DNA from: Thermoleophilia bacterium
Lineage (GTDB): Bacteria; Actinomycetota; Thermoleophilia; Miltoncostaeales; Miltoncostaeaceae
Reading direction: 5' to 3'
Length of the DNA stretch: 64,000 nt
Assembly (NCBI GenBank): GCA_017882545.1
Contig: JADGPG010000087.1
Span: 1 to 64,000 of the forward strand
In this document: positions 57-6,700 of the stretch, one piece after another
Position numbering within the stretch: the stretch's first letter is position 1
Layout: each line of letters opens with the position of its first letter
Translations under genes and position numbers: made by a program
Notes under the pieces: model-generated
Told to the model about the DNA's origin: nothing
What the model saw: only the letters and a program-made list of their open reading frames with translations
Database searches by the model: none

Positions 57-1187
57 CTATCCGGTGAACCCGCCCGGCGAGACGACCGCCCTAGCGCACG
101 CCCGAAAGCGAAACGCAAGCGATGCAGGCGGTACGCTGTTCGTAAAGGTGACGCGAGCGACAACGGTGCGAATCCCCGGAGTCGGCTTGACCAGCGCGGT
201 GAACGGCGCCCGACCGCGACGAGCGATCACGCGACCACCGACCGAGAACACGACACGTCGAATCCGGAGGCCTCGGACGGCAACGCGGAAGTTGCCCTTG
301 ACGCAAACGCTCGTACCGAACCGTGCGACCTGCCGAGCGACCCGCGCAGGAATCGTCGTCATGACCGCAGTGCCCGTGGGCCGAGCGCTCCCGGTTCCCC
401 CGCCGCCACCCGTTCCGCCTCCGCCCCCACCGGTCCCGCCCGGTGCACAATGCGCGGCGGTGATTCTGTCGTCAATCAGTGTGACCGCACCGTTGCGCGC
501 CAGGGCCCGCCCCGACAGCACGACGCCGCGATTTACCGAGATCGATGTCAGGGCGAGAATGTTGCCGGCGAACGCTGTTGTCGTGCCGAGCGTCGCGGAG
601 CTCCCCACCTGCCAGTAGACGTTGCAGGCGTGGGCTCCGTTGATGAGCCTCACGCGGCTCCCAGACGCCGTGGTCAGCGTCGATCCAGCCTGGAACACAA
701 AGACGGTGTTTGGATCTCCTTGGGCGTCGAGAGTAAGAACGCCGGTCAGCCCAAGCGACGACTTGGACTTGTAGACCCCGCCCGTCACGGTAAGTCCACC
801 GAGGTCGCCAGAGACCGCGAGGGGTGGCGTTCGCCCAGCGGCATCGACGTAGGCGACGGTGAGGTCGCTCTTGGCGTTGCCAGCCACGCCGTCGGCCTTA
901 TGGATCGTCCCGTTCACCTTGCCGGGCGGAAAGCCCGTGACCGCGGTGCCGGGACTCAGTCCGAGGTTGCCGTTGATCGTTGACGCACCGGTGTTTGTCA
1001 CCGTCGAGCCGGCCAGGACGGCAAAGCTTTCGGCCGTCCCGAGGCCAACTGGCGCCTGCGCCGAGAGCGCGGCGACGACGGGTACCGCCAATGCCGCGGC
1101 TCCCGCAACGACAACCAGCCCGACCCTCCGAGCCCGAGGTCTTGAGTACGACGACGAGCGAGGGCGCATTCGAGTTTTGAATAGCAC
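57..1187 (-). CDS. Secreted ice-binding-like (DUF3494) protein
   Basis: A 376-residue exported protein. An Arg-rich N-terminus and a hydrophobic run (VGLVVVAGAAALAVPVVAAL) form a signal peptide. Residues about 45-245 match the DUF3494 ice-binding beta-solenoid family: LGTAESFAVLAGSTVTNTG at its start, then INGNLGLSPG, a FVFQAGSTLTT strand and a CNVYWQVGSSATLG turn. A Gly/Thr linker (GGTGGGGGGTGG) leads to a basic domain of about 100 residues that is probably Ig-like and may hold the protein at the cell surface. The GTG start is supported by AAGGAGG eight bases upstream. Family members bind ice or act as adhesins; ice binding here is inference. Confidence 0.85.
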   Translation of the reverse strand: MLFKTRMRPRSSSYSRPRARRVGLVVVAGAAALAVPVVAALSAQAPVGLGTAESFAVLAGSTVTNTGASTINGNLGLSPGTAVTGFPPGKVNGTIHKADGVAGNAKSDLTVAYVDAAGRTPPLAVSGDLGGLTVTGGVYKSKSSLGLTGVLTLDAQGDPNTVFVFQAGSTLTTASGSRVRLINGAHACNVYWQVGSSATLGTTTAFAGNILALTSISVNRGVVLSGRALARNGAVTLIDDRITAAHCAPGGTGGGGGGTGGGGGTGSARPTGTAVMTTIPARVARQVARFGTSVCVKGNFRVAVRGLRIRRVVFSVGGRVIARRGRAPFTALVKPTPGIRTVVARVTFTNSVPPASLAFRFRACARAVVSPGGFTG

Positions 1188-3260: not shown

Positions 3261-3389
3261 CGATGGATCTCCTTCGGGCGGGACAATGAGATCCAGAGTA
3301 GCGCGATCCCCAGGTCCCACGCCGACGCCGACGCTGGCGGACGTCGGGCGGGCCGCCTAGCCTTCAGACACCGCGACGATCGGGACGCT

Positions 3390-4250
3390 ATTCCACCGCA
3401 CGACTCCAGCCGCTCCCCCGGGCGCACCGCACCACGCCGACTGCTGCTTGTCGGCGCCGCTGTCGTGACTGCGGGAATCGTCGGCGCCGCGGTACTCGCG
3501 TCCGCGGGGACCCACCGCCCCGCTCTGGTCCCCACGACACCAACAGCGACGCCGCGCTCGTTGACGTCGGCCCGCCTGCGTCCGATCGTCTACATCCAAG
3601 CCGGTCACCAGCCCCCCGGCGAGCCGGGGTATACCGCCCAGACGGGCGCCAGCGGCGGGCCGTTCGGAACCGAGGTCGCATTCAACGTGCGACTCGCCCG
3701 GGCGCTGTCGGCGCGTCTTCGGGCGTCCGGGGTGATCGTGCGTCAGACGCCGGCGAAAGTCACCCCCTGGGGAGCCCGAGGCGCCGTCTTCATCAGCCTG
3801 CACTTCGATGCCGCCGGCGGGAGCGCGGGGATCGGGTACGCAGTTCACCAGCGCGGTCGCGGCGAGAACTACTACCAAGGTGAGGGCTCGGGCACCGCCC
3901 GTCCCGTGCCCTACCCCAACTCGGCACCCCACCGCAAGGCGACCGCGGTCACGACGGCTGTCCAGCAGAGCTCCCTGCGGCTCGCGCGCGACCTCGCCGC
4001 CACGTTCGGTCCGATCCATACCCGCGCCAACGGCGCCCGCGGGCGGTTCCGGGGTGTCGAACCCGGCGCGCGCGGCAACGTCCGCATGCAGTTCTTCTAC
4101 GGCTACTACCGCGTCAATACACGGGCGCGGGTGCTCATCGAGTGCGGTGCGGCAGACCTCGACTCCGCTTTTCTGGGGCGCGTAAGTTTGATCGCCGGTG
4201 CAATCGACAAGGGCCTTGTCGCCTATCTGCATCAGACCAAGCAACTCTGA
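3390..4250 (+). CDS. N-acetylmuramoyl-L-alanine amidase (Amidase_3), exported
   Basis: Zinc amidase that cleaves the lactoyl-Ala bond in peptidoglycan. The Amidase_3 ligand set is visible: AGHQ (His), GTEVAFNVRLA (Glu), SLHFDA (His) and the late IECGA (catalytic Glu). A hydrophobic segment (LLLVGAAVVTAGIVGAAVLAS) precedes a Thr/Pro linker, so the enzyme is exported or signal-anchored. The start is uncertain: no ATG lies in frame between the divergent His-rich gene and the hydrophobic segment. I placed it at an ATT giving a basic N-terminus; the GTG at 3465 is the alternative. The ORF-track start at 2847 is not credible because it crosses the gene on the other strand. Confidence 0.8.
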   Translation: MPPHDSSRSPGRTAPRRLLLVGAAVVTAGIVGAAVLASAGTHRPALVPTTPTATPRSLTSARLRPIVYIQAGHQPPGEPGYTAQTGASGGPFGTEVAFNVRLARALSARLRASGVIVRQTPAKVTPWGARGAVFISLHFDAAGGSAGIGYAVHQRGRGENYYQGEGSGTARPVPYPNSAPHRKATAVTTAVQQSSLRLARDLAATFGPIHTRANGARGRFRGVEPGARGNVRMQFFYGYYRVNTRARVLIECGAADLDSAFLGRVSLIAGAIDKGLVAYLHQTKQL

Positions 4251-4381: not shown

Positions 4382-5827
4382 ATGGGAATCCGAGGTCTTG
4401 TCGCTACCGTGTTTGTCGCCGCCCTCGCCTCGGCGACGGCCGGCGTCGGTGTCGCCACCGCCGCGGGGACCTCACCCTCACGCAACATCATCCAGCAGCC
4501 CGGGCCGGGCGGGGTCACGCCGCTGATCATCGGCGGCCATGATGCACGCGCCGCCACGTGGCCGTACCTGGCATCGGTGATCAGCACGGAAGGTCTCTGC
4601 ACCGGAGAGCTCGTGGGCGCGCGGTGGATCCTCACCGCACGGCATTGCGTCACGTCCTCCACCGGGGCGGTGTTCTCTGCCGCAAGCATGCGCATCGCCA
4701 TCGGTGTCGGACCCCTGCTCAGCCGCCGCAGCTGGCTGATACCCGTGCGCATCGTCTCGTTCCCGGGATATCACCCTGTGACCAGCACGGGTGATCTGGC
4801 GCTCATCGAGCTTCCCGCACCGACCACCCGCCAGACCGTCGAGCTCGCGTCGACGAGTCCGGACCCCACCCAAAGCGTGCCGGCACGCATTGCCGGTTGG
4901 GGGCTGACCAGCGACAACGCAACGACCACGCCCAACTTCCCTCAGGAAGCATCGACGATGGTCTGGCCGCAAACGTACTGCTCGCAGTCCGAACCGTCGG
5001 TGTACGACACGGCGACGGAGATCTGTGCGGGCGGCCCCGATCCGACCCAGACCCGCCAGTACCCGTCGGTCTGCAACGGTGACTCCGGCGGGCCGCTCAC
5101 CGTGCCGGGCAGTGGCGGTCCGTGGACGGACCGGCTTGTCGGCATCACCGACTTCGGTTCGGACGCCGGCTGCGACGCCGCACCGAACGCGTTCCAGAGC
5201 ATTCCGGCGCACCTGGGCTGGATTCTGCGCACGACCGGGATCGGCACCGTCCCGATCCTGCGCGCCCACCAAACCGCGGCGGGCCACTCCAACGCCGTGA
5301 TCACGGTCTCCCTGCGGGCATCACAGGCACGAACGACGGTCCTGATCATCGGCCCGAACGGGCAGGCGATCGCCTCCCGCCGCGTGCAGGCATGGCACCA
5401 AAGGCCGCTGCGGATCACCGTCGCCGGGCTTGTCCCAGGCCTGACGGTCCGCGGATACCGGGTCATCACCGCCAACGCCTACGGCACCTCACGGGCGATC
5501 GGCGTGGTACTTGTGACACACCCGGTCCCGTGCGTGCTCGCCGCGCATGGCGCGTGCCCGGCCCGCAATTTGACGGGGCGCAACCTGTCGGGGCGCAACC
5601 TTGCCGGGACCGATCTCCGCGCCGCAAACCTCGCCCACGCACGGCTGGTCGGAACACGCCTGGCGCGAGCGCGCCTGACGTTCGCCAACCTTACCGGCGC
5701 CAATCTCACCGGCGCGACGCTGGCAGGCGCCCAGCTATCGGGGGTTGTCTGGTCCCACACCACCTGCCCCGACGCCACCGACAGTTCCACGAACACGACG
5801 GCGCCGCCCAGCTGCGTCGGGCACTGA
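4382..5827 (+). CDS. Secreted trypsin-fold (S1) protease with C-terminal pentapeptide repeats
   Basis: 481 residues from ATG 4382. A signal peptide (LVATVFVAALASATA) is followed by a short propeptide ending ...TPL, then IIGGHDA, the usual mature N-terminus of S1 proteases. Catalytic residues are His88 (TARHC), Asp138 (STGDLAL) and Ser235 (CNGDSGGP). The residue six before the catalytic Ser is Ser229, the chymotrypsin-like S1-pocket choice, so large hydrophobic P1 residues are expected. A middle beta domain (about 285-385) precedes about 12 pentapeptide repeats (NLTGRNLSGRNLAGTDLRAA; later ANLTGANLTGATLAGAQL). An S1-pentapeptide fusion is unusual. The next gene, 12 bases on, encodes a probable inhibitor. 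Confidence 0.88.
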   Translation: MGIRGLVATVFVAALASATAGVGVATAAGTSPSRNIIQQPGPGGVTPLIIGGHDARAATWPYLASVISTEGLCTGELVGARWILTARHCVTSSTGAVFSAASMRIAIGVGPLLSRRSWLIPVRIVSFPGYHPVTSTGDLALIELPAPTTRQTVELASTSPDPTQSVPARIAGWGLTSDNATTTPNFPQEASTMVWPQTYCSQSEPSVYDTATEICAGGPDPTQTRQYPSVCNGDSGGPLTVPGSGGPWTDRLVGITDFGSDAGCDAAPNAFQSIPAHLGWILRTTGIGTVPILRAHQTAAGHSNAVITVSLRASQARTTVLIIGPNGQAIASRRVQAWHQRPLRITVAGLVPGLTVRGYRVITANAYGTSRAIGVVLVTHPVPCVLAAHGACPARNLTGRNLSGRNLAGTDLRAANLAHARLVGTRLARARLTFANLTGANLTGATLAGAQLSGVVWSHTTCPDATDSSTNTTAPPSCVGH

Positions 5828-5839
5828 CCGGAGCGCGCG

Positions 5840-6265
5840 ATGAATGACGGCCGCCGCTCACCCCGATGGTCCCGCGCGACGCTTGCGGTCGTCGCCGCGG
5901 TCGGCGTCGCGCTGGTCGCCAGTGGTTGCGGATCGTCGTCATCCTCGTCGACGACGACATCGGCCGAGCTTCAGGTCACGCTCAATCAGTCTGGCGGTAC
6001 CGGGCCCGTTCAAACGTGGAGGGTCACCTGTCCGAGTGCGCCCCACGGTGTCGCATGCGCCAAGTTGATCGCCACGCCCGACGCATTCACGCCCCATCCC
6101 GCTGACTCCGCGTGCACGATGATCTACGGCGGGCCGCAGGTGCTGACCGTCGACGGGCACGTCGGTGACCGCCAGGTGAGCTACACGACCGGCCGGGGCA
6201 ACGGCTGCGAGATCGCAGATTTTGCGCGCGACATCGCGCTTGTCGCCCCGTTCCGGCGCGCCTGA
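5840..6265 (+). CDS. Subtilisin-inhibitor-like (SSI family) lipoprotein
   Basis: 141 residues. A lipobox (VGVALVASGC, Cys30) predicts membrane anchoring and a Ser/Thr linker follows. The rest matches Streptomyces subtilisin inhibitor: four Cys (64, 73, 92, 123) for the two family disulfides, the reactive loop SACTMIYGGP (SSI has CPMVYDP), then VLTVDGHVGDRQVSY and a late NGCEI. The P1 residue would be Met94, typical of inhibitors of subtilisin and chymotrypsin-like enzymes. It lies 12 bases after the S1 protease and is probably co-transcribed, suggesting an inhibitor tethered to the producer's membrane. Family assignment rests on recalled motifs. Confidence 0.72.
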   Translation: MNDGRRSPRWSRATLAVVAAVGVALVASGCGSSSSSSTTTSAELQVTLNQSGGTGPVQTWRVTCPSAPHGVACAKLIATPDAFTPHPADSACTMIYGGPQVLTVDGHVGDRQVSYTTGRGNGCEIADFARDIALVAPFRRA

Positions 6266-6274
6266 GCCCGACCG

Positions 6275-6700
6275 ATGGCCCGCCCAGGCCTCAGTCCGGC
6301 CGACGTCGCCGGCCACATCGCCACACGCGGAAACTGGACGTACTCTCGCTCGGGTGGACCGGGCGGCCAGCGGCGCGACCACGTCGCCACCGAAGCCCGG
6401 CTGGAGGTGACCACCGACGCGCTCGTTGGACTCCCGGAACCGGTGGTGCGGCGGCTGGTGCGGGGGCTTGGGCTCAGCGACCGCCCGCTACGGCTGCGGT
6501 CCGGCACCGAACGCCTACGTGAGCACAACCGTGAGCGCGTGCTTGCCCGCCTGACCGCTCGTGTCGCTCAGGCGCTCGCTCCCGCGCCGCCGTCACGTCG
6601 GGCGACGCGCCCCTCGCGAGCGGCCGTCGAGCGCCGCCTGTCCGGCAAACGCCGCCGGGCGGCCACCAAGGCGAAACGGGGAACGCCGGACCCCGACTGA
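6275..6700 (+). CDS. ArfB/YaeJ-type peptidyl-tRNA hydrolase (ribosome rescue)
   Basis: 141 residues. The N-terminal half is a release-factor catalytic domain with the GGQ motif in its usual setting (TYSRSGGPGGQRRDHVATEARLEV). The last 60 residues are strongly basic (RRLSGKRRRAATKAKRG), like the ArfB tail that enters the empty mRNA channel of stalled ribosomes. It lacks the codon-recognition domains of RF1/RF2. It follows the inhibitor gene by nine bases, probably in the same transcript, though no functional link is obvious. The unusual His after GGQRR is within family variation. Confidence 0.87.
   Translation: MARPGLSPADVAGHIATRGNWTYSRSGGPGGQRRDHVATEARLEVTTDALVGLPEPVVRRLVRGLGLSDRPLRLRSGTERLREHNRERVLARLTARVAQALAPAPPSRRATRPSRAAVERRLSGKRRRAATKAKRGTPDPD

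Follow-up and report, generated by a model that had tools for sequence, protein, structure and literature searches.

Adjacent genes for a secreted S1A protease and an SSI-family predicted lipoprotein, a possible cognate pair, in a Thermoleophilia bacterium

In the window, the 64,000-nucleotide stretch of a Thermoleophilia genome analysed here, the gene of a secreted serine protease with intact catalytic residues is directly followed by the gene of an SSI-family inhibitor with a lipobox and a reactive loop that aligns with that of SSI, and the same adjacency is present in a sister species. The two products may form a cognate pair that protects the producing cell; the evidence leaves this reading evenly balanced. 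The initial annotation had proposed such a matched pair, together with a pocket type, an activation site and a P1 residue that would fit each other.

Gene run and conservation in the genus

Four genes form a run on the plus strand of the window:

3330..4250, plus strand: N-acetylmuramoyl-L-alanine amidase-like gene (Amidase_3), upstream gene; PF01520 weak at E 0.005, below the cut-off; coordinates give the conserved part
4382..5827, plus strand: secreted S1A-type serine protease, 481 aa, with signal peptide, short propeptide, catalytic domain, beta domain and pentapeptide tail
5840..6265, plus strand: SSI-family (I16-like) inhibitor, predicted lipoprotein, 141 aa (profile, PF00720 in relatives, fold search)
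6275..6700, plus strand: ArfB-like peptidyl-tRNA hydrolase, next gene in the run; PRK09256 (ArfB) at E 2.8e-22 and 78.9 bits, below the cut-off of 100

The ATG at 4382 was taken as the start of the protease gene, not that of the longer open reading frame from 4268, because the homologue in the sister species starts there with a similar signal peptide. The gaps are short, 12 bases from protease to inhibitor (about 17 in the sister species) and 9 bases from inhibitor to ArfB-like gene. A scan detected neither a sigma-70-like promoter in this region nor a terminator separating the protease gene from the inhibitor gene; this would agree with one transcript, as weak evidence in a high-GC organism. 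Protease, inhibitor and ArfB are likely part of one transcription unit.

The order of protease, SSI lipoprotein and ArfB is kept in the sister species (G003, Thermoleophilia MAG Chersky_126), with a full-length protease homologue of 59% identity and an inhibitor of 60% identity. The synteny extends over about nine genes, from the amidase to a DEAD-box helicase, thus the adjacency of protease and inhibitor alone says little. The gene immediately upstream of the protease is an amidase homologue in G003 (68%) and in a third congener, G002 (73%), where the amidase and a truncated protease start are located at a contig end. The fourth congener (G001, 99% complete) has kept ArfB and the next gene and has neither protease nor inhibitor. 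Its best amidase match reaches only 52% identity, so that the missing segment may be larger; the amidase orthologue is probably absent as well, and the joint absence was for this reason set aside as proof of a functional pair. Apart from this run, the window encodes a secreted ice-binding-like protein (PF11999, 6e-66; positions 57-1187, minus strand), and the name of the sister MAG suggests a cold site. The host was characterised as a soil-type bacterium.

The protease

In Pfam, the protease matched PF00089 at 1.1e-32, and solved S1 enzymes were matched by its sequence at 1e-20. The model of the catalytic domain has the chymotrypsin fold, with a TM of 0.87 to delta-chymotrypsin (1dlk) in a fold search of the PDB. 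Family match and fold together assign the enzyme to peptidase family S1A. The following sites and regions were located:

4523..4528, plus strand: zymogen activation bond Leu48 to Ile49 (sequence); Tyr to Val in G003, Tyr to Ile in G002
5066..5068, plus strand: Ser229, position 189 of the S1 pocket (alignment); Asp in most relatives
5084..5086, plus strand: catalytic Ser235 (position 195) in GDSGGP, invariant in the alignment
5186..5188, plus strand: Asn269, position 226 of the pocket (alignment); Gly in most relatives
5288..5515, plus strand: beta-rich middle domain, residues about 303-378, of low model confidence (AlphaFold2 secondary structure)
5567..5824, plus strand: pentapeptide repeats (about 12) and Cys-containing C-terminal cap (W..TTCPDAT...C), from PF00805 and register count

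The triad is intact: H88, D138 and S235 aligned on His57-Asp102-Ser195, and I49 on Ile16. A Ser six residues before the catalytic Ser had been taken as the sign of a chymotrypsin-type pocket. This Ser is residue 229, and the S189 protease of this genus is the sole one of its kind seen in its family in the alignment. The pocket type was borne out in part: Ser189 and Gly216 are present, but Asn stands in place of the Gly226 of an open chymotrypsin-type pocket, and Asp in place of Ser at position 214, in both species of the genus. With Asn226 and Asp214 the pocket departs from the standard chymotrypsin type; judged from its residues, the enzyme could prefer Met, Leu or Tyr. The lineage-specific changes beside the intact triad, at residues 87, 257, 258 and 269, are A56R (Gln in G002), S214D, W215F/Y and G226N; positions 56 (Arg/Gln) and 215 (Phe/Tyr) also differ from the relatives.

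The activation point after Leu48 was confirmed, with TPL48 followed by IIGG. The residue before this bond is Leu, Tyr and Tyr in the three congeners and Arg in 21 of 28 relatives with Asp at position 189. The hydrophobic series would be compatible with self-cleavage by an enzyme with hydrophobic preference. Leu48 by itself was rejected as proof of self-activation, since two of the D189 relatives (L049 and L052) also have Leu there.

About 12-13 pentapeptides were counted in register (PF00805, 1.9e-11), in agreement with the about 12 repeats noticed at the outset. The full architecture occurs in the window genome (G000) and G003 only, among 399 genomes of the class, with the truncated start in G002, and a literature search of open-licence papers found no pentapeptide-trypsin fusions. 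Pentapeptide tails with a Cys cap are common at the C-terminus of other secreted proteins from relatives; at L050, L054, L056 and L059, pentapeptide modules ending in a TTCP(D/N)GT..T.C-type cap form the C-terminus of secreted proteins or lipoproteins.

The SSI-family lipoprotein

Searched alone, the inhibitor gave no usable family match in Pfam or NCBIfam, PF00720 remaining below threshold, and phmmer related it to SSI at 1e-3. A profile of 26 relatives (alignment A1) matched SSI structures at 5e-8, and PF00720 was matched by 19 of these 26. The structure model has a pLDDT of about 95 in the core; its 14 best fold matches in the PDB were all SSI-family proteins, with probabilities of 0.87-1.00 and TM values of only 0.34-0.53, and the fold matches included the SSI complexes 2sic and 4hx2. 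Profile and fold search secure the membership of the lipoprotein in the SSI family (MEROPS I16). Two sites are of importance:

5927..5929, plus strand: lipobox Cys30 (VASG then C30) with a Ser/Thr-rich linker after it (sequence); kept in G003 and many relatives
6113..6136, plus strand: reactive loop C92-T-M94-I-Y-G-G-P99 with P1 Met94 (codon 6119-6121), from the alignment with SSI

Cys64, Cys73, Cys92 and Cys123 are invariant in the 26 relatives, in line with the four cysteines that form two disulfides in the SSI family. In the alignment, C92-T93-M94-I95-Y96 corresponds to C71-P-M73-V-Y75 at the reactive site of SSI, which places Met94 on the P1 Met73 and Cys92 at P3. The signal peptide ends in a lipobox Cys, preceded by VASG here and by VISA in G003, and a lipobox is present in most relatives, thus a lipoprotein is predicted. 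Profile, lipobox and loop alignment uphold the earlier description as an SSI-like lipoprotein with P1 Met94 in CTMIY. Two SSI-like domains in tandem within one reading frame (about 270 aa) were observed at L005 and L024 (G008 and G017).

Genome contigs were scanned for SSI relatives with a subset of alignment A1, which as a whole was too diverse. When species genomes were scanned for CTxIYGGP[EQ], a pattern that fixes the flanks and leaves P1 free, 179 relatives were obtained, of which 80 were analysed; the named ones among them are all Actinomycetota. Ten residues occurred at P1 (Q 20, E 18, K 15, M 11, D 6, L 3, H 3, F 2, A 1, R 1), and the unselected set A1 had the same contrast of fixed flanks and variable P1. 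Canonical inhibitors under changing target pressure keep their scaffold constant while P1 is hypervariable, and this pattern points to protease inhibition as the very likely molecular function of these lipoproteins.

The proposal that Met94 fits the protease pocket was supported only partly. Of 24 relatives from other genera of the class, 20 have Glu or Gln at P1 and 2 have a hydrophobic residue; within the class, Met is confined to this genus, where both paired genomes have it. Because of this rarity, Met94 is still suggestive of a pocket match, but Asn226 and Asp214 alter the pocket, and Met, Leu or Phe is found at P1 in 16 of the 80 members of the wider family (about 20%).

Protease and inhibitor genes across genomes

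In the window genome (2.27 Mb), a single S1 gene of the classical type is full-length (E 1.8e-33), and it adjoins the only SSI gene; the other six PF00089 matches are at 1e-14 or weaker and cover the domain partially. Chance adjacency of a given S1-SSI pair amounts to about 1 in 1000, for a pair that was chosen after the fact. SSI lipoproteins are encoded in 111 of the 399 class genomes; at the threshold applied, 92 of these have no classical S1 gene. In the 19 genomes with both, adjacency was seen in G000 and G003 only, and over the class as a whole the two families co-occur weakly (odds ratio 1.9, p 0.055, without correction for descent).

No S1/S8 signature was present at 77 of the 80 SSI loci, searched up to 7 kb on each side (1.0 Mb in total). 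At the three loci with such signatures, the nearest one was each time the immediate neighbour: L077 is the window pair, L146 (1-1759, a Nocardioidaceae MAG) has an S8 subtilase directly upstream of an SSI lipoprotein with P1 Gln, and at L151 (1-7562) two S8 subtilase genes and one S1 trypsin-like gene cluster with the SSI gene. The recurrence of immediate protease neighbours favours, as far as gene order can tell, a cognate reading in those lineages. The pair had been expected to be conserved in relatives; this holds for G003 with the same order at 59-60% identity, but G001 lacks both genes, and outside the genus an SSI gene beside an S1 gene was found among the 80 loci only in the mixed cluster of L151. 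In a sister genus (L007, L009-L014; G011, G024, G028-G031, G035, G038), the SSI lipoprotein gene is situated within about 1 kb of one to four genes for chagasin-family inhibitors (PF09394, I42), at least one of them a predicted lipoprotein; these arrays occur in eight genomes. No I42 gene was found in the window genus.

Proposed function and alternatives

As a cognate pair, the two proteins would act as follows. The protease would leave the cell as a zymogen and mature by cleavage behind a hydrophobic residue, with self-cleavage probably contributing. It would then serve as an extracellular digestive enzyme whose pocket is a modified version of the chymotrypsin type. The SSI-family lipoprotein would be a standard-mechanism inhibitor, lipid-anchored on the outer face of the cytoplasmic membrane, and would present Met94 to serine proteases reaching the membrane. 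The neighbouring protease would most likely be its main target, so that newly exported enzyme would be kept off the cell envelope.

The inhibitor may instead serve as a general surface shield against foreign proteases of predators, competitors or grazers, its place beside the protease reflecting neighbourhood history. We consider this rather unlikely, though several observations speak for it: the class genomes with SSI lipoproteins mostly lack a classical S1 gene, nearly all SSI loci are free of S1/S8 signatures, ten P1 residues between fixed flanks are as expected for shifting targets, and the SSI gene is found in the chagasin-family arrays of the sister genus. However, such an I42 partner was not found in the window genus, the change from Glu or Gln to Met coincides with the one protease of its family that was seen to have Ser189, and serine-protease neighbours are immediate where they are present.

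Control of another protease of the same cell, e.g., of the two secreted S8/S53-like enzymes encoded elsewhere in the genome, appears improbable. SSI-type inhibitors classically bind subtilisins, and we take 2sic and 4hx2, which were among the fold matches, to be complexes of SSI-type inhibitors with subtilisin; at L146 and L151, SSI genes adjoin S8 genes. Secreted sedolisin-like proteases with S53-type motifs were detected at L204-L206, on contigs C35 and C13 of G000 and C66 of G003, and none in G001 and G002 at E 0.001, so that by co-occurrence they are equally good targets. Their motifs, GGTSxxAP and an E...D pair, are of the sedolisin type, not those of the classic subtilisin target, and their genes are on contigs other than that of the SSI gene. 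A role of the lipoprotein as substrate or receptor, with the protease cutting the Ser-rich tether and freeing a soluble inhibitor, is very improbable. An exposed linker does extend from Cys30 to the folded domain at about residue 42, with low model confidence, and Listeria Mtz/Tim offers a precedent (PMC8235301), but the linker SSSSSSTTTSAEL has few hydrophobic P1 sites.

For the cognate pair, then, the matched-pair claim was supported in part by the conserved order in G003, by the sole S1 and sole SSI genes adjoining, by Met at P1 in both paired genomes and by Leu, Tyr and Tyr at the activation bond, but was weakened by the syntenic block, by Asn226 and Asp214, by unpaired SSI genes elsewhere and by the other possible targets. 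We infer inhibition of the neighbouring protease, and with it self-protection, from this combination. A tentative extension, for which we see somewhat less than an even chance, is that P1 switched from Glu or Gln to Met when a tethered SSI gene became coupled to an S1 protease without Asp189, the tether making the surface immune to the own enzyme.

Relation to known systems

To our knowledge, SSI of Streptomyces is soluble and its gene is not beside a protease gene, whereas in the present case a lipoprotein is predicted, and its gene adjoins that of the protease. Inhibitor family, P1 Met and a serine protease secreted by the same cell are common to both systems; inhibition of this endogenous protease, SAM-P20, by SSI is the subject of Taguchi 1995 (as cited in PMC5994538). 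AprA/AprI of Pseudomonas likewise combines a secreted protease, a serralysin, with a nearby gene for an envelope-held inhibitor thought to protect the producer, but the enzyme is a metalloprotease and the inhibitor is unrelated and periplasmic, not lipid-anchored (PMC4070987). Protease and inhibitor genes are also coupled for staphopain/staphostatin and SpeB/Spi (PMC3462683), unlike the present pair cysteine proteases with cytoplasmic inhibitors. In Listeria Mtz/Tim, adjacent genes encode a secreted protease and an inhibitor-fold lipoprotein, reported as likely cleaved by the protease; these are a metzincin and a TIMP-like protein (PMC8235301). The locus L146 resembles the present pair in that an SSI lipoprotein gene lies directly downstream of a serine protease gene, and differs in the subtilase instead of an S1 enzyme and in P1 Gln. 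Coupled genes for secreted proteases and cell-held inhibitors are thus already known; an S1 enzyme together with a tethered SSI in one gene run is new, and so is the picture of tethered SSI proteins as a family whose P1 varies. A literature search of open-licence papers found no earlier description of an S1 protease paired with a tethered SSI.

Self-protection from own proteases has so far mostly been studied with cytoplasmic or periplasmic inhibitors. If the two proteins are cognate, they would illustrate how a bacterium with a single membrane can protect that membrane from the serine protease it secretes. The tethered SSI inhibitors of Actinomycetota lend themselves to the question of which proteases, the cell's own or foreign ones, such inhibitors track.
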